Below, piece by piece: positions 5,766 to 38,373 of a stretch of 64,000 bases of DNA; within the stretch, counting starts at the first letter, position 1, and every line of letters begins with the position of its first letter. The translations under genes and the position numbers were made by a program. The stretch covers positions 806,001-870,000 of the forward strand of contig NZ_JBBKTU010000001.1 in the NCBI RefSeq assembly GCF_037892605.1, in the 5' to 3' direction. The notes below the pieces were generated by a model. It was not told the DNA's origin. It saw only the letters and a list, made by a program, of their open reading frames with translations, and searched no databases. Origin of the DNA: Lacibacter sp. H407. Lineage in GTDB: Bacteria; Bacteroidota; Bacteroidia; Chitinophagales; Chitinophagaceae.

Positions 5766-6440
5766 CTACTTCTTTTCAAGTTTTTTCAAAGGATTTCCTA
5801 TGTAAACACCGCTCTCCGTGATATTTTTTACCACAACTCCTCCCATCCCAATCGTAACATTATCTGTAATTGTTATGCCTTGACGTACACTCGAGTTTGT
5901 TCCAAAATAGACCTGATTGCCAAATTCACAGTGTCCACTTACATTTACACCCGGGGCTGTGGTAAAGAAATCTCCCATATTGCAATCGTGTCCGATGGTT
6001 GTATTAAGATTGAGTTGTGCGTGTTTGCCAATTTTAATATTACATGTCATTATTACACCAGCAGTAATAATGCTTCCTAGTCCAATTTCCACCCAGGATG
6101 AAACGATAGCAGAAGGATGAATAATGCTTATATATTCCGTTTCAAAGGGCAAACTATCGACCATGCTTTTCCTTTGTTCAGGATCACCAATAGCAATCGA
6201 AGTAAAAAAATTAGATGGTTGAAATTCCGATTGCCTAATTACCGGTATTCCCATAATTTCTTTGTCCTCGTAGTGTTTGTCCCCAACCATAAAACAAACT
6301 CGATCTGAGATGTCTTTGCTATATGCCCTAAACACATCTGTTATGATGCAAAATACTTCTCTTCCAAAGCCGCCTGCTCCTACAATACAGATTCTTTTCT
6401 CATTGGTGTTACTTACGAATTCCAATAAATTGTTATGCAT
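5766..6440 (-). CDS. PglD/NeuD-family sugar acyltransferase
   Basis: A 224-residue protein with an N-terminal Rossmann-like domain (KRICIVGAGGFGREVFCI, residues about 15-32) and a C-terminal left-handed beta helix (IGLGSIITAGVIMTCNIKIG onward) containing LNLNTTIGHDCNMG. This His-containing loop matches the catalytic base region of PglD/NeuD. PglD acetylates the 4-amino group of UDP-4-amino sugars. Here the neighbouring VioA-like aminotransferase supplies a 4-amino-4,6-dideoxysugar as plausible acceptor. It is one of two PglD-like genes flanking that aminotransferase. Confidence 0.82.
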   Translation of the reverse strand: MHNNLLEFVSNTNEKRICIVGAGGFGREVFCIITDVFRAYSKDISDRVCFMVGDKHYEDKEIMGIPVIRQSEFQPSNFFTSIAIGDPEQRKSMVDSLPFETEYISIIHPSAIVSSWVEIGLGSIITAGVIMTCNIKIGKHAQLNLNTTIGHDCNMGDFFTTAPGVNVSGHCEFGNQVYFGTNSSVRQGITITDNVTIGMGGVVVKNITESGVYIGNPLKKLEKK

Positions 6441-31296: not shown

Positions 31297-32742
31297 CTAC
31301 TCTCCTTCCACCTCTCTCGTCTTCTGCCAAGGCTTAATACTCGGTCCATCCATTTTCACGATCTTCGGTGTAAACTTTCCAACAACATCAACTAATGATT
31401 GCTGACTCTGCATCACCAGTTCAATATCCTTGTAAGCAAATGGTGCTTCGTCTAATCCGCCGCCCATTAACTTCACGCCATGCTTTTTCAATTCATCTTT
31501 CAATGCATTATGCGTAATGCTTTGCATAGCTCTTGAACGACTCATTAAACGTCCGGCTCCATGTGAAGCTGAATTAACAGATGCTGTTTCTCCTTTACCT
31601 TTTACAATAAAGCCAGCGGCTGTCATGCTTCCCGGAATAATACCCAGTACATCTTTACCTGCTGGTGTTGCACCCTTACGATGAACGATCACATCTTTTC
31701 CTTCCCACTTTTCTTTCCACGCAAAGTTGTGATGATTCTCCACCATCTTTATTGGTCTTCGTCCAAGTTGTTTGGCGATCTTTTGATGAATTACATGATG
31801 ACAGGCACTTGCATAATCACCGGCTAAATTCATCGCTAACCAATATTCCATTCCTTCTTCTTCATCGAGGTTTAACCAGGCAAGATTTTTTGCATCCTGC
31901 GGCAAACGTCTTTTACTGATAGCGATCTTGGTATAATGGTTCGCAATGTTTGCACCCAATGCTCTTGAACCGGAGTGACTCAACAGCCCAACATACTTCC
32001 CTGCTTCCACACCCAACACTTCATCTTTCTCTGCAATTTCCACCACACCAAATTCAACAAAGTGATTTCCGCTTCCGCTGCTACCTAATTGTTTCCATGC
32101 ACGACCGTGCAGGTTTTTCAGCAACGGCAATTCGAAAAACAATTCGTTATCCATCACTTCATGATTGGCACTTTGTTTAAACTGTGCGCCGCTTCCAAAT
32201 AAAGTAGCTTCGCCAATCTCTCTTGCAAAGAATGCTTCTCGTTGTACCAGATCTTTCGGATCGATATCAAAAATGCTCAAACACATTCTGCAACCAATAT
32301 CTACACCAACACCATAAGGTATCACTGCATTCTCAGTTGCCAATACACCACCGATCGGCAAACCATAACCATGATGTGCATCGGGCATTAATGCGCCGGC
32401 TACTGCCACAGGTAATTTTGCTGCGGTGTACATCTGGTGCATGGCGCTTTGTTCAATATGCTCGCTTCCGAACACATTAAATTGAATTCCGTTTTGATTC
32501 AACGACAACTCTCCTTCACTTTCTTTTTCATCCGGCATCAATTGTTTTGCGATCAATGCCAGCACAGCATCATCTAAATAATTTGCAGGTGATGCCAACA
32601 CTGCTTTCAACAGTTCCATAACTTCCTCCTTTGTGTGATGCTTGTATTTTTTTTGCATCACATTCATGGCGACGCTGATCACCGGTCCTTCCGGATAGCC
32701 AATCGCTCTTAATTCTTTTCCTGATATTTTTAACTTGCTCAT
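31297..32742 (-). CDS. rtcB: RtcB family RNA ligase
   Basis: A 481-residue RNA-splicing ligase. Motifs in order: PDAHHGYGLPIGGV, VGVDIGCRM (metal Cys), SSGSGNHFVEF, LLSHSGSRALG, VENHHNFAW, VHRKGATPAGK and SASHGAGRLMSRSRA, which carries the His that is guanylylated. RtcB joins RNA 2',3'-cyclic phosphate or 3'-phosphate to 5'-OH ends using GTP and Mn. It seals tRNA exon halves in archaea and animals and repairs nicked RNA in bacteria. Here it closes an operon-like run containing 15 tRNAs and permuted tRNA genes. The N-terminal 80 residues are an extension relative to E. coli RtcB. Confidence 0.95.
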   Translation of the reverse strand: MSKLKISGKELRAIGYPEGPVISVAMNVMQKKYKHHTKEEVMELLKAVLASPANYLDDAVLALIAKQLMPDEKESEGELSLNQNGIQFNVFGSEHIEQSAMHQMYTAAKLPVAVAGALMPDAHHGYGLPIGGVLATENAVIPYGVGVDIGCRMCLSIFDIDPKDLVQREAFFAREIGEATLFGSGAQFKQSANHEVMDNELFFELPLLKNLHGRAWKQLGSSGSGNHFVEFGVVEIAEKDEVLGVEAGKYVGLLSHSGSRALGANIANHYTKIAISKRRLPQDAKNLAWLNLDEEEGMEYWLAMNLAGDYASACHHVIHQKIAKQLGRRPIKMVENHHNFAWKEKWEGKDVIVHRKGATPAGKDVLGIIPGSMTAAGFIVKGKGETASVNSASHGAGRLMSRSRAMQSITHNALKDELKKHGVKLMGGGLDEAPFAYKDIELVMQSQQSLVDVVGKFTPKIVKMDGPSIKPWQKTREVEGE

Positions 32743-33434: not shown

Positions 33435-34532
33435 TTATTTCTGTGGTACGAAAATCTGCTTCAACTGTTCAATCAACACACCGTTACCACTTACACTGAT
33501 GTTGCTGATCTTGTCGGCGATCTTTTCTACATATTCCATTTCCTTCAGTTTCCACAACATCGCATTTTCTTCCATCAGCTTGGCAGTGTTCAGCAAGCTA
33601 CGGGTGCTGGCAGTTTCTTCACGACGCATGATGCTGTTGGCCTGCGCTTTCTTCTCGGCGATCAACACCTGGTTCATGATCTCTTTTACATCGCCCGGCA
33701 AAATGATATCACGGATACCAAAACCAAGCACTTCAATACCCAACGCTTCCGCTTTCTCTTTTACCTGCGCCAGAATGTAAGGAGCAACTGCCTCTTTTTT
33801 CTCCAGCAATTCATCGAATCCATAACCGGCAATGTATTCACGCAGCACCAATTGAAAAGCTACGTACAATTGTTTATCGTACTCTTTGTTTTGCAACAAT
33901 GCTTTTTCAATATCGGCCACTTTGTATTGTGCCCATGCATTCAAACGCAAAGCCGCTTTGTCTTTGGTTAGAATTTCCTGGCCGTTGATCTCCAGTTGTT
34001 GCTGACGTTTATCTACTTTACCCACCAACACACTAATGCTGTTCTTCCACCAGTAGTACACACCGCTCTGCAAACGTTTTTGGAATTTACCATCAACAAA
34101 CAGCAAAGCCTCTTCGTAGTTTTCTACACTGTAGTTACGCACATACGGAGCCAGCAACCTGTTTTGCAAAACAGCACGATCAATGTTTTCATCGATCTCC
34201 ACTTTGCTGATGTCTGCCTTTACAAACGCATACTCAACAGCACTTTTCCAGTAAGTGTAACGACCGGCAGTCAACACCTGATCCAACAAACCATTTTCAT
34301 ATTTCAACACAATTTCATTGTCTTTTACATCTACCACATGCAAGGCTTCTGCTAATGCAGCGTCCTGCAACAGGATGTTCAATTCAATTGGCGCTACAAA
34401 TCGTTTATTAAGATCATAAAACTGCACTTCTTTGTTGCACAACCAGTAGTTACCTTCTTTCAGCATTTGCTGATATACACCATTCTTAAATACCAATGCC
34501 ACATGGTAGGCATTTACTTTTACACGTTTCAT
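33435..34532 (-). CDS. SPFH/Band-7 slipin-like protein
   Basis: About 365 residues from MKRVKVNAYH. The N-terminal half has three repeats of a short beta motif (HVALVFKNGVYQQMLKEGNY, NEIVLKYENGLLDQVLTAGR, EALLFVDGKFQKRLQSGVYY). The SPFH domain follows (TKDKAALRLNAWAQYKVADI through LGIEVLGFGIRDIILPGDVK), then an alanine/glutamate-rich coiled coil (VLIAEKKAQANSIMRREETA). No membrane helix is obvious. Slipin-like proteins are known neighbours of RtcB in bacterial RNA-repair clusters, where a scaffold role is suspected. A start at 34562 is possible. Confidence 0.85.
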   Translation of the reverse strand: MKRVKVNAYHVALVFKNGVYQQMLKEGNYWLCNKEVQFYDLNKRFVAPIELNILLQDAALAEALHVVDVKDNEIVLKYENGLLDQVLTAGRYTYWKSAVEYAFVKADISKVEIDENIDRAVLQNRLLAPYVRNYSVENYEEALLFVDGKFQKRLQSGVYYWWKNSISVLVGKVDKRQQQLEINGQEILTKDKAALRLNAWAQYKVADIEKALLQNKEYDKQLYVAFQLVLREYIAGYGFDELLEKKEAVAPYILAQVKEKAEALGIEVLGFGIRDIILPGDVKEIMNQVLIAEKKAQANSIMRREETASTRSLLNTAKLMEENAMLWKLKEMEYVEKIADKISNISVSGNGVLIEQLKQIFVPQK

Positions 34533-34562
34533 TTTATTTGTTTTGTTGCGCATTGCATACAT

Positions 34563-34843
34563 GCAATTTGCAGTTGTTTAAAAAGAATAAAGCCGGTTGG
34601 TTGATCATCCTGTTGTTACGGAGATGAATGTTCAATTGCGTTAGTTCAAGCGGTTCATCAAACGCCTGTTGATGATAGGTATCATCAATTCTGAGTGATG
34701 GAGCGAATGCTTTTGCACAACTTCTTTTTCACCTGCGGGTAATTACCTGATTGCAGCATCAATCAACTGATCGTTAACGATTCATCTTTTGATACCGCCG
34801 GCCAATCACCCGGCTTTATTTGTTGGTCAGCATTTGAGAAGCG
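34563..34843 (-). pseudogene. Coding-like remnant between permuted tRNAs and slipin gene
   Basis: No intact gene. On the minus strand one frame continues out of the tRNA-like unit as DEVQRFSNADQQIKPGDWPA and stops at 34763. Another frame gives SLRIDDTYHQQAFDEPLELT up to the slipin start. Both have protein-like composition but are broken by stops and a frame change. A GCCGG/CCGGC inverted pair lies near 34800-34814. It may be a decayed gene, a long leader or further tRNA-like material; I cannot decide. Confidence 0.35.
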
Positions 34844-34930
34844 CTGTACTTCGTCTGCTACATTATCAGTGTAGTGTTCTACCATTGAACTATTCACCCT
34901 TGAGATGAAACAGGATTCGAACCTGTACTT
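34844..34930 (-). tRNA. Circularly permuted tRNA-like gene, anticodon GAT (Ile)
   Basis: On the minus strand the order is T-arm ACAGG-TTCGAAT-CCTGT (34926-34910), 3' acceptor strand TTCATCT (34909-34903), linker CAA, 5' acceptor strand GGGTGAA (34899-34893), TA, D-arm GTTC-AATGGTA-GAAC, A, and a complete anticodon arm CTACA-CTGATAA-TGTAG (34874-34858). The two acceptor strands pair over 7 bp with two G-U. In linear order no 3' partner for GGGTGAA exists. AAGTACAG is repeated at both ends (34930-34923 and 34851-34844), 79 bases apart, one tRNA length plus linker. Joining the ends would give a 76-nt tRNA with U33 and anticodon GAU. Confidence 0.75.
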
Positions 34931-35012
34931 GGGAGCTGACACTCTAGCCACTTGAGTTACCCCGTTTTTACGGGAGAAGGATTCGAACCTTCGTCCTTCA
35001 GCGTATTGGCAG
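34929..35012 (-). tRNA. Circularly permuted tRNA-like gene, anticodon loop split (Gly-like NCC)
   Basis: On the minus strand: loop-like CTGCCAA (35012-35006), TAC, anticodon 3' strand GCTGA (35002-34998), variable AGGAC, T-arm GAAGG-TTCGAAT-CCTTC (34992-34976), 3' acceptor TCCCGT, linker AAAA, 5' acceptor ACGGGG (34965-34960), TA, D-arm ACTC-AAGTGGCTA-GAGT, G, anticodon 5' strand TCAGC (34939-34935), then CCC within CTCCCAA. TCAGC pairs with GCTGA, and ACGGGG with TCCCGT, only if the order is circular. Read linearly, only 14 bases separate D- and T-stems, too few for an anticodon arm. Gly is inferred from the CTNCCAA loop sequences. Confidence 0.7.
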
Positions 35013-35095
35013 GCATAGCACAACTGCAACAACAGCATACAACAGGTTACTACCGTTGCACTATCGTGCTTCTTTGAAACACAGATCCGGTTTGC
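35013..35095 (-). ncRNA. Degenerate tRNA-like half, possible third permuted unit
   Basis: On the minus strand GTGTTTC (35082-35076), AAA, GAAGCAC (35072-35066) form a 7-bp acceptor-like hairpin with one G-U. This is the same layout as the two permuted tRNAs that follow. A D-arm-like GTGCAACGGTAGTAAC comes next. The upstream T-arm is not canonical (a CAGAT/ATCTG stem with a 14-base loop), and the stretch after the D-arm is long and TG-rich. Either a decayed unit or one with an intron-like insert. Confidence 0.4.
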
Positions 35096-35140
35096 TGTCA
35101 ATCTGCATATACCTGTCTTGCCGTTAAGCAAGCTTTTATT

Positions 35141-35231: not shown

Positions 35232-36308
35232 TTAATTCATTAATTCCACCTGTCTGCGAAAACCAATCACTTCAACTTTTTCAACCTGTTGTGTTTTTTC
35301 ATGCGGGTTGGCAATCTCTGCAATGGTCATCGGTTGATCAATCAGCTTATCGAAACCAAAATGATTTGATAAACGATTGGCTTTCTCCACACCCAATTTT
35401 CCAAACTCATACTTTGCGATCAGTCTTCCTTTGCGCATTAACGCACTATCCACCATCGTAAGCGAATTGTTGAAGGTGCAGATCAATTGCACATTCAGGA
35501 AATCAGCCAGTAACCCATCTGAAATATTCAACAGGTTCGATACAGATGAACTGCTGCTATACTTTCTGTCCATGATAATATTCTCTGCATCTTCAATGAT
35601 CAATACCGTGTTAGGATTATCAATCAGCAGTTCAATAAAATCAGGATTCATCAAATTACCTGCAACAGAAGGCGACAGGAACAATACACGTTTCTTGATT
35701 TTTCCAACCAGGTAACGCAGGTAGGTTGTTTTGCCCGTGCCGGGTAAACCATGCAGCAGTACAATTCCTTTGTCGTTCTTTTGACTCAATCTTTTTCTGA
35801 TCACTTCATCTATTTCCTTAAAATCATCTTCATAAAAAAGATTCAAGTCAAGCTTTGTACGTTTGATCTCCATTGCTTTTAAATCAAGATGATTTCTGTT
35901 CTGCACGATCAGGTTTATTTCTAATGGCTGGCGACGTTGCCGTTCCTTAAACTGATTGACCATGATGCTGAGTTCCTGCACAAACGCATCATTTTTTCCG
36001 TTGTGCAATACTTCGCAATAGTCATCATCAAATTCAAGTATGCAATTATTGATTAAAATCACCACTGTTTTATCGAACTGGAATTTCTTTTTCTTTTGCT
36101 TGTACCAGCGTGTCTGATGAATATCCTTTATCATTTCAGCATAACGCTCCTTAAATACTCCAAATGCTTTTTCACCATCGATATAATTCATGAAATGAAT
36201 ACTCGGCAAGCTGTTGAAGCAATACAGGTATAAAATTTTCGTATCCAAAAAATTATCAGAGAACACATTGTTAGCACTGATCACTTTTTGATTAAATAAA
36301 CTGTCCAT
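35232..36308 (-). CDS. BCS1-like AAA+ ATPase
   Basis: A 358-residue protein. The N-terminal 180 residues have no recognised domain but include KKKKFQFDKTVVILINNCIL. The AAA core has Walker A LLHGLPGTGKTTYLRYL near 190, Walker B NTVLIIEDAENIIMD, sensor 1 QLICTFNNS and the arginine region ALMRKGRLIAKYEF, the order typical of BCS1-type AAA proteins. Likely remodels a protein or RNP using ATP. It lies between the YkuK-like gene and the permuted tRNAs, framed by two inverted repeats, on the same strand as rtcB. The specific client is unknown. Confidence 0.82.
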   Translation of the reverse strand: MDSLFNQKVISANNVFSDNFLDTKILYLYCFNSLPSIHFMNYIDGEKAFGVFKERYAEMIKDIHQTRWYKQKKKKFQFDKTVVILINNCILEFDDDYCEVLHNGKNDAFVQELSIMVNQFKERQRRQPLEINLIVQNRNHLDLKAMEIKRTKLDLNLFYEDDFKEIDEVIRKRLSQKNDKGIVLLHGLPGTGKTTYLRYLVGKIKKRVLFLSPSVAGNLMNPDFIELLIDNPNTVLIIEDAENIIMDRKYSSSSSVSNLLNISDGLLADFLNVQLICTFNNSLTMVDSALMRKGRLIAKYEFGKLGVEKANRLSNHFGFDKLIDQPMTIAEIANPHEKTQQVEKVEVIGFRRQVELMN

Positions 36309-36417: not shown

Positions 36418-36900
36418 TTATTGTACTACTTTATTTGCACAACTGGAACTGGCGAAAGCTTCCGGTTTTGCTTTGAACGCAAAGCCCATCCCCATGATAT
36501 AACCCATTGCTTCTTTCAATGCATCATTGCTTTTAAAAGAAGGGTTGGTGTTAATATCAGCATGCACTTCCATATCCACATCATACAACGTAAACAACCT
36601 GCACAATCCGTACGCCACATCAATACTCATGGCAACTTCCGTTAACATCCGTTGCTTAATGTTCATCTTTTGTTTTGTTGTTTCATTGTGGATGTACATG
36701 AAACCGCCTTTTCCTTTCCGGATGAAAACGATCACGGTTGCAAATTCAGTTTCCTTTCCTTTCACCTGGCTATCGGTACCAATGCACACTTTTAATTTGT
36801 GTCCCATTTCTTTTTCACGTACCAACACAGCTTTTACTTCGTCCTCAATAGGCCGCCGAATTTTTTCTCCGTTCAATTTTCTCCATTGCCGCTGTTCCAT
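36418..36900 (-). CDS. YkuK/DUF458 family RNase H-like protein
   Basis: A 160-residue protein. KVCIGTDSQVKGKETEFATV gives the first RNase H-fold strand with its Asp near residue 42. A strand pair (GKGGFMYIHNETTKQKM), an amphipathic helix (QRMLTEVAMSIDVAYGLCRL), and VDMEVHADINTNPSFKSNDA with acidic residues follow. This matches the YkuK (DUF458) family, predicted RNase H-like nucleases of unknown substrate. It starts 45 bases after the last tRNA of the array, on the same strand, so it may act on those RNAs. Catalytic competence is not proven from sequence. Confidence 0.82.
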   Translation of the reverse strand: MEQRQWRKLNGEKIRRPIEDEVKAVLVREKEMGHKLKVCIGTDSQVKGKETEFATVIVFIRKGKGGFMYIHNETTKQKMNIKQRMLTEVAMSIDVAYGLCRLFTLYDVDMEVHADINTNPSFKSNDALKEAMGYIMGMGFAFKAKPEAFASSSCANKVVQ

Positions 36901-36945
36901 TGTTTTACATTTTTTAATTTTTCATTCTTCCTTTCTAATTTTAAG

Positions 36946-37018
36946 TGGTGCCCCGTGGAATTGAACCACGATGTCCGGGATTTCACTCCGGTGCATATAT
37001 CCATTCTGCCAAAGCACC
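36946..37018 (-). tRNA. tRNA-Phe(GAA)
   Basis: 73 nt. Acceptor GGTGCTT/GGGCACC (two G-U), T-arm CGTGG-TTCAATT-CCACG, anticodon loop GTGAAAT. The anticodon stem has an A31-C39 mismatch. CCA not encoded. Last tRNA of the 15-gene array, 45 bases before the YkuK-like gene. Confidence 0.85.
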
Positions 37019-37020
37019 AT

Positions 37021-37085
37021 TTGTTTGTTACAGTTACTGACTGATATCTTATTTCCTCATCATCGAACTAAACTGTTCCAAACAA
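37021..37085. repeat. Inverted repeat in tRNA spacer
   Basis: TTGTTTGTTACAGTT (37021-37035) opposes AACTGTTCCAAACAA (37071-37085) with two mismatches. A 15-bp stem fills the spacer between tRNA-Phe and tRNA-Ser(GCT). Possible RNase processing signal. Confidence 0.55.
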
Positions 37086-37088
37086 TTG

Positions 37089-37178
37089 CGGAGAGTAAAG
37101 GAATCGAACCTTTGTATCCGCCTGCGGCGGACAGCCCAAGCTTAGCAGGCTGGCACATTACCACTCTGTCAACTCTCC
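37089..37178 (-). tRNA. tRNA-Ser(GCT)
   Basis: 90 nt, class II with a long variable arm (GTCCGCC...GGCGGAT). Acceptor GGAGAGT/ACTCTCC, discriminator G, T-arm AAAGG-TTCGATT-CCTTT, loop CTGCTAA. One mismatch in the anticodon stem (CCAGC/GCTTG). CCA not encoded. Confidence 0.88.
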
Positions 37179-37222
37179 TTTTTATTTTTTGTTACCGGTA
37201 ACAAAAACTCCAATCATCCTCG

Positions 37223-37242
37223 TTGCGTCGCACTCTTGTACT
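37223..37242 (-). repeat. Dispersed repeat GTACAAGAGTGCGACGCAAC, copy 2
   Basis: Reverse-strand copy of the element at 33351-33370 with a single change, in the spacer between the two tRNA-Ser genes. The same spacer has the perfect palindrome GTTACCGGTAAC (37191-37202). Confidence 0.6.
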
Positions 37243-37274
37243 GCATATCGCAAATCATGTTTTCAAATACACAG

Positions 37275-37358
37275 CGGAGAGAAAGAGATTCGAACTCTTG
37301 AGGCTTTTACACCCAGTCTGTTTTCAAGACAGCATCCATGACCAGCCGGACTCTCTCC
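37275..37358 (-). tRNA. tRNA-Ser(TGA)
   Basis: 84 nt, class II. Acceptor GGAGAGA/TCTCTCC, discriminator G, T-arm AAGAG-TTCGAAT-CTCTT, anticodon arm CTGT-CTTGAAA-ACAG with a mismatched outer pair. CCA not encoded. Confidence 0.88.
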
Positions 37359-37405
37359 ATAAGTGTGAGTGGTACGACTCTCCAACTTCGTTGCACTCAC
37401 AATTG

Positions 37406-37477
37406 CGGATGAAGAAAGATTCGAACTTTCAACCTACGGTCTAACAAACCGCTGCTCTGCCGTTGAGCTATTCATCC
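37406..37477 (-). tRNA. tRNA-Asn(GTT)
   Basis: 72 nt. Acceptor GGATGAA/TTCATCC, discriminator G, D-arm GCTC-AACGGCA-GAGC, anticodon arm GCGGT-TTGTTAG-ACCGT, T-arm GAAAG-TTCGAAT-CTTTC. Well formed. CCA not encoded. Confidence 0.92.
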
Positions 37478-37481
37478 ATTG

Positions 37482-37556
37482 TTGGCCCGGTGAGATTCGA
37501 ACTCACAACCTCCCGGTTAAAAGCCGGGAACATCTATCCAGTTGAGCTACGAGCCA
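37482..37556 (-). tRNA. tRNA-Lys(TTT) with weakened D-stem
   Basis: 75 nt. Acceptor TGGCTCG/CGGGCCA, anticodon arm CCCGG-CTTTTAA-CCGGG, T-arm GTGAG-TTCGAAT-CTCAC. The D-stem GCTC/GATG keeps only two of four pairs. CCA not encoded. Confidence 0.88.
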
Positions 37557-37561
37557 ATTTG

Positions 37562-37633
37562 TTGCGACTGAAAGATTCGAACTTTCAACTATCACCTTGT
37601 AACGATGATCTTCTTCCATTGAATTAAGTCGCA
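37562..37633 (-). tRNA. tRNA-Val(TAC)
   Basis: 72 nt. Perfect acceptor TGCGACT/AGTCGCA, anticodon arm TCATC-GTTACAA-GGTGA, T-arm GAAAG-TTCGAAT-CTTTC. The D-arm ATTC/GAAG has a short 7-base loop and one mismatch. CCA not encoded. Confidence 0.88.
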
Positions 37634-37640
37634 TTGTTTG

Positions 37641-37715
37641 TGATGACTGAAAGACTCGAACTTTCAACCTTTACCGTATCAGGGTAACGCTCTCAACCAA
37701 TTGAGCTAAGTCATC
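37641..37715 (-). tRNA. tRNA-Ile(GAT)
   Basis: 75 nt. Acceptor GATGACT/AGTCATC, anticodon arm TTACC-CTGATAC-GGTAA, T-arm GAAAG-TTCGAGT-CTTTC, D-arm GCTC-AATTGGTT-GAGAGC region normal. CCA not encoded. Confidence 0.92.
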
Positions 37716-37723
37716 TTGCTATG

Positions 37724-37796
37724 TTGACCCAATCAGATTTGAACTGATAACCTTGAACGTATAAGGTTCCTGCTCTCACCATTGAGCTATGGGTCA
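37724..37796 (-). tRNA. tRNA-Ile(TAT)
   Basis: 73 nt. Perfect acceptor TGACCCA/TGGGTCA, D-arm GCTC-AATGGTGA-GAGC, loop CTTATAC giving anticodon UAU, T-arm ATCAG-TTCAAAT-CTGAT. The outermost anticodon-stem pair (G-A) is open. UAU is rare in bacteria, which normally read AUA with lysidine-modified CAU. CCA not encoded. Confidence 0.85.
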
Positions 37797-37803
37797 ATGA
37801 TTG

Positions 37804-37875
37804 TTGCGGTTACAGGAGTTGAACCTGTATCTGAAGCTTATGAGACTTCCGAATTAACCATTACTCTAAACCGCA
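37804..37875 (-). tRNA. tRNA with CAT anticodon (Met or Ile2)
   Basis: 72 nt. Acceptor TGCGGTT/AACCGCA, anticodon arm GAAGT-CTCATAA-GCTTC, T-arm ACAGG-TTCAACT-CCTGT. Whether this is elongator Met or lysidine-type Ile2 cannot be decided; the array already has an Ile(UAU). No initiator features (no C1-A72 mismatch or triple GC). CCA not encoded. Confidence 0.88.
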
Positions 37876-37883
37876 ATCTGTTG

Positions 37884-37956
37884 TTGACTTAACAAGAGTC
37901 GAACTTGTATCTCTGCGTTCGTAGCGCAGTATTCTCATCCATTGAACTATAAGTCA
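37884..37956 (-). tRNA. tRNA-Arg(ACG)
   Basis: 73 nt. Perfect acceptor TGACTTA/TAAGTCA, anticodon arm CTGCG-CTACGAA-CGCAG, T-arm ACAAG-TTCGACT-CTTGT. Well formed. A34 would need editing to inosine by TadA. CCA not encoded. Confidence 0.9.
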
Positions 37957-37961
37957 AATTT

Positions 37962-38055
37962 GTACGGCTTCCGGATTTGAACCGAATACAATCATCTGCT
38001 ACTTGCCTCTCAGAAAGAGAGGGAGACAATCATGTTACCATTACACCAAACCGTA
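37962..38055 (-). tRNA. Aberrant 94-nt tRNA, Glu(TTC)-like
   Basis: Acceptor TACGGTT/AGCCGTA, T-arm TTCGG-TTCAAAT-CCGGA and D-arm GTGT-AATGGTA-ACAT are normal. The middle is about 20 bases too long. CCTCT-CTTTCTG-AGAGG forms a five-pair arm with TTC in the anticodon place, but T at position 37 is abnormal. Outside it TTGTC could pair with GGCAA, and TGATTGT occurs on both sides. May be an intron-like insert or a decayed gene. Isotype uncertain. Confidence 0.6.
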
Positions 38056-38057
38056 TT

Positions 38058-38130
38058 GGTTGACTCCGGGACTCGAACCCTGTTCTTCACATTCACAGTG
38101 TGATGCTTTACCAGATAAGCGAAAGCCAAC
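38058..38130 (-). tRNA. tRNA-His(GTG)
   Basis: 73 nt. Acceptor GTTGGCT/AGTCAAC, discriminator C as expected for His, anticodon arm TCACA-CTGTGAA-TGTGA, T-arm CAGGG-TTCGAGT-CCCGG with one A-G mismatch. The base at -1 is T in this fold, so the usual encoded G-1 is not evident. CCA not encoded. Confidence 0.87.
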
Positions 38131-38143
38131 ATTTTAGTTTACG

Positions 38144-38215
38144 TCACGGGACTCAGAGTCGAACTGAGAACATCACAGTCAAAGTGTGATATGTTAACCA
38201 TTACACTACCCGGCA
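38144..38215 (-). tRNA. tRNA-Gln(TTG) with acceptor mismatch
   Basis: 72 nt. Anticodon arm TCACA-CTTTGAC-TGTGA, T-arm CTCAG-TTCGACT-CTGAG, D-arm GTGT/ACAT. The acceptor TGCCGGG/TCCCGTG has a C4-C69 mismatch and three G-U pairs, so it is weak. CCA not encoded. Confidence 0.85.
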
Positions 38216-38221
38216 ATAAAG

Positions 38222-38293
38222 CGGTTCGTACGGGAATCGAACCCGTTGCAACAGATCGACAATCTGTGATGTTAGCCGTTACACCAACGAACC
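38222..38293 (-). tRNA. tRNA-Asp(GTC)
   Basis: 72 nt. Perfect acceptor GGTTCGT/ACGAACC, discriminator G, anticodon arm ACAGA-TTGTCGA-TCTGT, T-arm ACGGG-TTCGATT-CCCGT. Well formed. CCA not encoded. Confidence 0.93.
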
Positions 38294-38300
38294 AATTTTG

Positions 38301-38373
38301 TATAGCAGACAGGACTCGAACCTGTAGCCTCTCCGTTCCAGGCGGAGTATCCAACCAATTGGAATGCTGCTAT
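38301..38373 (-). tRNA. tRNA-Pro(TGG) with C at position 33
   Basis: 73 nt and first tRNA of the array. Perfect acceptor ATAGCAG/CTGCTAT, T-arm ACAGG-TTCGAGT-CCTGT, anticodon arm CTCCG-CCTGGAA-CGGAG. The near-universal U33 before the anticodon is C. The D-stem TTCC/GGAT keeps three pairs. CCA not encoded. Confidence 0.85.

Follow-up and report, generated by a model that had tools for sequence, protein, structure and literature searches.

In some algae and archaea, tRNA genes are circularly permuted: the 3' half comes first, a short stretch intervenes before the 5' half, and mature tRNAs are produced. Among bacterial RNAs, the permuted (two-piece) form of tmRNA is a permuted tRNA-like RNA. Burroughs and Aravind are also said to have reported, in the abstract of a 2016 paper, SPFH/Band-7 repair modules with 'a novel tRNA-like molecule'. 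When compared with tRNA, the bacterial Y RNA of PDB entry 6CU1 is reported to superpose in circularly permuted order (PMC11472068), and the view of a preliminary description of the present DNA, that bacteria have permuted tRNA-like RNA only as tmRNA, was thus too narrow. According to the sections of the reports used here, YrlA is 90-150 nt long with a Ro60-binding stem (PMC8394870) and sits in the RtcB operon of Salmonella (PMC7790460). A protein-centred parallel is found in Anabaena, where, in the part of the study used here, an operon of 26 tRNAs, rtcB, a slipin operon and a gene for an AAA ATPase are all under the control of the repressor TrcR; its deletion raises rtcB 77-fold, and repression is relieved under translational stress (PMC10272220).

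The window analysed here is a stretch of 64,000 nucleotides from the 4.9 Mb genome of Lacibacter sp. H407 (Chitinophagaceae; contig NZ_JBBKTU010000001.1). Its minus strand carries, in 5' to 3' order, a tRNA array, a PF04308 gene, an AAA ATPase gene, a structured RNA region and the genes for a slipin, a DinB_2 protein and RtcB (Table 1); the slipin start, judged from relatives, is likely at 34532. Twelve of the 13 anticodons called by ARAGORN in the array are also present elsewhere in the genome, with 52-76% identity between copies, and the array tRNAs are, to judge from their sequences, divergent spare copies. Outside the array, ARAGORN called 36 other tRNAs, Ile(GAT) among them, and neither Rfam nor ARAGORN called a tmRNA in the window. 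The locus is made of the same kinds of parts as the Anabaena TrcR regulon, but they are dispersed there and adjacent here, and the sections of that study used here name no tRNA-like RNA (PMC10272220). Two permuted tRNA-like units in the window are domains of one long structured RNA upstream of slipin, which is a variant of the permuted tRNA-mimic RNAs linked to RNA repair and not a pair of odd tRNA genes. A protein-coding reading of the region was rejected, the 122-aa ORF that overlaps the RNA (34763-35131) having no Pfam match at E 0.001.

Table 1. Features of the RNA and of its neighbourhood, in positions of the window
Feature	Position	Strand	Basis or remark
Conserved structured noncoding RNA, about 540 nt	34589..35132	-	outer estimate of limits
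5' hairpin CTTGC-TTAACG-GCAAG	35117..35132	-	conservation judged by eye in family alignment
5' domain	35010..35115	-	closed by helix CAGGTATA (35108-35115) / TATGCCTG (35010-35017)
Permuted tRNA-like unit 1	34935..35002	-	covariation; model R2, 60.5 bits
Unit 1 T-arm	34976-34992	-	
Unit 1 acceptor: 3' strand TCCCGT, AAAA loop, 5' strand ACGGGG	34970-34975 (3' strand); 34960-34965 (5' strand)	-	
Unit 1 D-arm	34941-34957	-	
Unit 1 split anticodon stem GCTGA / TCAGC	34998-35002 / 34935-34939	-	
Permuted tRNA-like unit 2	34858..34926	-	covariation; model R2, 61.7 bits
Unit 2 T-arm	34910-34926	-	
Unit 2 acceptor: 3' strand TTCATCT, CAA loop, 5' strand GGGTGAA	34903-34909 (3' strand); 34893-34899 (5' strand)	-	
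Unit 2 D-arm	34876-34890	-	
Unit 2 complete anticodon-like hairpin CTACA-CTGATAA-TGTAG	34858-34874	-	
Hairpin GAAG-TACAGCG-CTTC after unit 2	34828..34852	-	pattern in 37/47 loci
3' domain, two covarying helices	34598..34808	-	
3'-domain helix AGGTGA / TTCATCT	34729-34734 / 34622-34628	-	passed covariation screen
3'-domain helix TGATTGG / GATCAACCA	from 34808 / 34598-34606	-	passed covariation screen
Slipin, SPFH/Band_7 protein	33435..34562	-	Pfam PF01145, 99.8 bits (cut-off 23.6)
RtcB RNA ligase	31297..32742	-	Pfam PF01139, E 2.8e-81
AAA ATPase	35232..36308	-	Pfam PF00004
PF04308 RNaseH_like protein	36418..36900	-	Pfam
tRNA array: 13 ARAGORN tRNAs and one further Rfam tRNA	36945..38373	-	

In both units, the order along the minus strand is T-arm, 3' acceptor strand, short loop, 5' acceptor strand and D-arm, and every piece of the permuted order that had been proposed for two adjacent units was located. 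As in the permuted tRNA genes of algae and archaea, the 3' half stands before the 5' half and the acceptor pairs within the permuted unit; in contrast to those genes, the units here are embedded as domains in a longer RNA, and the triplet drifts. The acceptor ends of both are closed by loops of 3-4 nt. Unit 1 begins with the 3' strand of an anticodon stem and ends with its 5' strand, confirming the split stem already noted in one unit, and it has no anticodon loop. Unit 2 continues beyond its D-arm into a complete anticodon-like hairpin, which had gone unlisted in the preliminary description. Over 60 units, the T-loop pattern GGTTC-A-TCC is invariant and the D-loop GG nearly so; these conserved bases are residues of the tRNA elbow. 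At the Rfam gathering threshold, the region is matched only by a partial tRNA (34837-34893, 32.8 bits). Among the tRNAs of the same genome, from which the units may or may not have been copied, the best raw local score was that of tRNA-Ile(GAT) with the 5' half of unit 2 (24 over 42 nt). The 8-base direct repeat AAGTACAG, previously interpreted as the trace of a permutation, does exist, at 34930 and 34851, 79 apart; that interpretation did not hold, since both copies occur in only 2 of the 42 loci aligned below and the repeat is therefore incidental.

A slipin protein search matched 64 of 294 family genomes, the source genome included. Leaving out the slipin genomes G036, G187 and G071, we compared 61 loci, that is, the window and 60 fetched regions. 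By pattern, two T-arms lie 50-75 nt apart upstream of slipin in 47 of them and 14 lack this arrangement. Five of the 47 (L069, L084, L085, L086 and L089) were left out of the alignment, in which 41 pairs in eight helices were counted over 42 relatives. The permuted structure is paired in 93.2% of cells and 35 of the 41 pairs show double-sided changes, so that the compensatory changes whose search in relatives had been proposed were indeed found; the acceptor pairs have changes on both sides at 13 of 13 positions (6/6 in unit 1, 7/7 in unit 2). The covariation score is 0.659, compared with 0.222 for shuffles, a control inflated by the kinship of the loci, and 0.09-0.16 for slid controls, which preserve that kinship. 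Covariation is present in all eight helices of both modules. The linear alternative, a single helix of six pairs between the 5' acceptor strand of unit 1 and the 3' strand of unit 2, is paired in 48.8% of cells and scores 0.164, less than the average of 0.227 obtained when it was shuffled, which agrees with the earlier observation that the acceptors pair only in the permuted reading. The permuted layout is thus real and conserved.

Rotated and linear readings, a comparison also proposed in the preliminary description, were set against each other using ARAGORN, with the loop of unit 1 joined from flanking bases of our choosing. A tRNA was called in 33 of 42 rotated units 1, in 39 of 42 rotated units 2 and in none of the 42 native, unrotated segments. 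The expected difference was therefore obtained, but mismatched halves were called as well (62 of 412 for unit 1 and 217 of 412 for unit 2); because of the latter count the test is weak for unit 2, and it supports unit 1 more than unit 2. With the loop bases we had chosen, rotated unit 1 was read as Pyl, Sec or stop in 6 of the 42 loci. Two models were also built, a single-unit model from 60 units of 30 loci (R2) and a tandem model from 35 loci (R1). R2 gave 60.5 bits to unit 1 and 61.7 bits to unit 2, and at most 36 bits to junctions of ordinary tRNAs in the window.

The anticodon-like loop of unit 2 was tabulated for 51 loci (39 from the family and 12 from the class), after dropping the aligned loci L048, L059 and L074, the class loci L130 and L142, and L134, in which the hairpin had been mispicked. 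The triplet at positions 34-36 is of 25 kinds, and the surrounding positions are T33 in 39 loci, a purine at 37 in 50 and A38 in 46. Among distinct loops, G36 is followed by G37 in 15 of 16, and other bases at 36 are followed by G37 in 1 of 21 (P 2.6e-8, to be taken as a guide only since the loci are related). Real tRNAs follow a 36-37 rule, which the pattern of the unit 2 loop matches; the loop would therefore either carry tRNA-like modification or be copied afresh from tRNAs. From its sequences, the loop appears to keep a generic anticodon-loop frame without lasting anticodon meaning.

Beyond the two units, covarying helices span 34598-35115. The outer limits of the RNA were set by the conserved 5' hairpin and by the complementarity between AAAGCCGG (34810-34817) and CCGGCTTT (34589-34596). 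The latter pair was rejected as a covarying outer stem, as the alignment gives it no support (8 to 27 of 43 paired at the six best-filled pairs), perhaps through misalignment. Because a MAFFT alignment of the entire RNA contained too many gaps (1234 columns), separate alignments were made of its 5' and 3' parts. The helix CAGGTATA/TATGCCTG was the only one in the 5' part to pass the covariation screen, and two helices passed in the 3' part; in each case, 10 column-order shuffles yielded none. The hairpin that follows unit 2 could form a loop-to-tail pseudoknot (CAGCG/TGCTG). Loop-tail complementarity of at least 5 nt is found in 32 of the 37 loci with the hairpin, compared with a mean of 11.9 and a maximum of 17 when tails were dealt anew 200 times, and complementarity of at least 4 nt in 37 of 37, compared with 18.3. 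In five relatives (L034, L040, L053, L086 and L089), a TTCTTTA-like motif, which we take to resemble the boxA antitermination element, lies upstream of the first hairpin; it was not seen in the window.

The five two-T-arm loci outside the alignment scored 73.1-92.4 bits with R1, other places reaching at most 52 bits. Twelve of the remaining 14 family loci have an R2 match of at least 47.5 bits upstream of slipin. The other two, L075 (36.2 bits) and L090 (30.4 bits), do not rise above the noise of the R2 search, which reaches 42 bits, although a T-arm and then a capped acceptor of seven pairs can be made out by eye in both. Taking the 42 aligned, the five and the 12 loci together, a unit above tRNA-junction noise is therefore present in 59 of the 61 slipin loci of the family. 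In the class, R1 matched something in 389 of 395 genomes because neighbouring tRNAs mimic the tandem model; R1 was thus discarded as a stand-alone detector, and slipin linkage was used instead. Among the 20 best class-wide R1 matches outside the source genome and G029, slipin lies just downstream in 14 and RtcB in one (L129), and five are ordinary tandem tRNAs (L132, L135, L136, L141 and L143; 74.7-100.8 bits). At one class locus, L133, slipin is preceded by three successive R2 matches (5868-6146, 44.7-55.4 bits).

More distant forms were sought by way of the slipin. The search of plasmid records found nine slipins, of which five were inspected; that of phage records found none. The E. coli and Citrobacter forms comprise a T-arm and a capped acceptor hairpin, with no D-arm seen by eye, and the Subdoligranulum form a T-arm, a capped acceptor and a possible D-arm; no anticodon arm was seen by eye in any of the three. 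At the same place, Photobacterium and Burkholderia have linear, unpermuted tRNA-like units (L148, 4632-4769, and L147, 4193-4292), and therefore the permuted order is not needed everywhere. R2 gave these five forms 18.3-37.9 bits, no better than ordinary tRNA junctions, so their membership rests on reading by eye and on position. The shortened E. coli form (L144, 4690-5000), upstream of slipin, was found in 1624 of 5426 complete genomes (about 30%), once each and on the chromosome; among the 30 E. coli matches listed, slipin was the only feature named in 28 and none was named in two. By eye, the RNA of E. coli, Citrobacter and Burkholderia is preceded by a site that we take to be sigma54-like; Citrobacter also has an annotated rtcR gene in divergent orientation.

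We also searched 84,980 species, each represented by one genome, with six slipins and took the best 80 of the loci listed, mostly from Bacillota and including three spirochaete assemblies. Three had too little upstream DNA, leaving 77 usable. A capped acceptor of at least 5 bp directly after a T-arm was found in 49 of these 77 further loci, compared with 13 of 266 T-arms of ordinary tRNAs; another 16 show a T-arm but lack the strict capped acceptor, and in the last 12 the strict pattern detects no T-arm. As regards the neighbouring genes, tblastn found homologues of RtcB in 38, of the PF04308 protein in 42, of the AAA ATPase in 25 and of DinB in six of the 61 family loci, within fetched DNA of about 12 kb or less, and RtcB was seen in 33 of 63 further loci with enough downstream DNA. 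From the counts for RtcB (38/61 and 33/63) and the AAA ATPase (25/61), the slipin tie is firm and the RtcB tie looser. Slipin is the constant partner of the RNA, bearing in mind that it also served as the search query.

The RNA resembles YrlA in having a circularly permuted tRNA-like domain and in its association with RtcB, since YrlA lies within the RtcB repair operon in some bacteria according to the sections of the reports used here (PMC11472068, PMC8394870, PMC7790460). It differs from YrlA in its two tandem modules and its length of more than 500 nt, in the full anticodon-like hairpin of the second module, in its slipin neighbour and in the lack of Ro60. In a 781-base stretch, the Rfam YrlA model (RF02553) matched unit 1 from end to end with 32.6 bits (gathering score 69; E 4.2e-5), its outer (terminal) stem aligning poorly. 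TROVE (Ro60/Rsr) had no match in the source genome and is present in 7 of the 64 slipin genomes; in one of the seven (G225), the TROVE gene lies about 3 kb from slipin. An identity as a Y RNA proper was rejected, given the missing Ro60, the RF02553 score below threshold and a length beyond 90-150 nt. In 10 family loci scanned at the Rfam gathering score, only tRNA was matched, with matches on the RNA itself in L055 (29.7 bits) and L077 (34.1 bits); in the loci scanned, no Rfam 15 family recognises the RNA beyond such marginal tRNA matches. The molecule of Burroughs and Aravind, reportedly a tRNA-like RNA beside the SPFH/Band-7 gene of an RtcB system, is very probably of the same family as ours. 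Priority for the linkage between Band-7 and a tRNA-like RNA is probably theirs, and they may or may not already have described the permutation. Among the literature matches listed, we recognised no publication describing this RNA.

We propose, tentatively and with somewhat less than even confidence, that the RNA is a tandem YrlA-like tRNA mimic that does without Ro60 and, when translation is under stress, acts as the scaffold of a repair or quality-control particle built on slipin. Its modules would mimic tRNA, retaining the elbow bases in T-arm and D-arm and an acceptor helix closed by a loop; with these features, they would be able to bind proteins that recognise tRNA, but not to accept an amino acid. 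In analogy to the jointly controlled Anabaena genes, the RNA may scaffold a slipin assembly and bring tRNA-handling enzymes (RtcB, perhaps a nuclease) to damaged tRNA. The Anabaena regulon, the adjacency of the parts here, the spare tRNAs and the sigma54-like sites with rtcR are the reasons for reading the RNA as part of a response to translational damage. By the tests made it is not a Y RNA, yet we infer that it would work like the tRNA-like part of YrlA. A more far-reaching version seems improbable to us: a single RNA family across phyla, whose tandem mimics would form the core of a slipin tRNA-repair particle and whose unit 2 loop would be a sacrificial damage sensor that RtcB can reseal. 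The permuted tRNA-like topology known from Y RNAs recurs, mostly without Ro60, beside slipin in several lineages. Bacterial slipins, which are poorly understood, would gain an RNA as candidate partner, and it becomes possible to test directly what is repaired by slipin/RtcB systems and how they locate it.

Other roles were weighed against the proposed scaffold. The RNA might be a damage sensor in the slipin leader, in which nucleases cut the unit 2 loop, RtcB reseals it and the cut state alters the fold of the RNA and switches the expression of slipin and of its neighbours. This is unlikely, though credible: a place upstream of slipin also fits a regulatory 5' leader, the loop keeps its frame and the 36-37 rule while the triplet drifts, and the presumed sigma54-like sites in E. 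coli, Citrobacter and Burkholderia, together with the divergent rtcR of Citrobacter, are consistent with it. However, given the forms from E. coli, Citrobacter and Subdoligranulum in which no anticodon arm was seen, loop cutting cannot be general. A decoy, in which the units compete against tRNA as targets of anticodon nucleases or of other attackers that bind tRNA, was suggested for YrlA by Hughes et al. in the section of their report used here (PMC7790460), and the conserved elbow bases and loop frame would suit it. We consider it distinctly doubtful for this RNA, as unit 1 lacks an anticodon loop, the triplet is unconserved and the 5' and 3' domains would be superfluous.

It is highly improbable that the units are true permuted tRNA genes, as the preliminary description held, from which cleavage and RtcB ligation would release functional tRNAs as in some algae and archaea. 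Rotation does give tRNAs that ARAGORN can call in most loci, and RtcB belongs to the cluster in the window. Against this, both units form part of a longer RNA, their acceptors are looped shut by as few as 3 nt, and there is no anticodon loop in unit 1, the rotated form of which is in some loci read as Pyl, Sec or stop (with loop bases of our choosing); moreover, the unit 2 triplet is of 25 kinds in 51 loci, and the genome has 36 other tRNAs, Ile(GAT) among them. The release of mature tRNAs is unlikely. A decayed tandem tRNA array, in which a 3' half and the 5' half of the next copy mimic permutation, can be dismissed despite the array nearby and the high scores of some ordinary tandem tRNAs with the permuted model (the five class matches above), because compensatory changes fall on permuted pairs, flanking non-tRNA helices covary, ARAGORN finds no tRNA in any of the 42 native segments and the junctions of the window's own array score far below both units.

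Some minor features of the array may be recorded. Its content resembles that of the stress-induced trn operon of Anabaena, as far as the sections used here describe it (PMC10272220). The array tRNA called as Ile(TAT) is unmatched among the 36 tRNAs called elsewhere in the genome. At 37963-38054, a tRNA-like stretch has matching acceptor ends, a D-arm and a T-arm, and its enlarged middle holds additional bases and a hairpin with a TCT-like loop; the stretch is absent from the calls of both ARAGORN and Rfam. Between tRNA-Asn and tRNA-Ser, an inverted repeat (GTGAGTG...CACTCAC, 37362-37405) is possibly another degenerate tRNA-like element.
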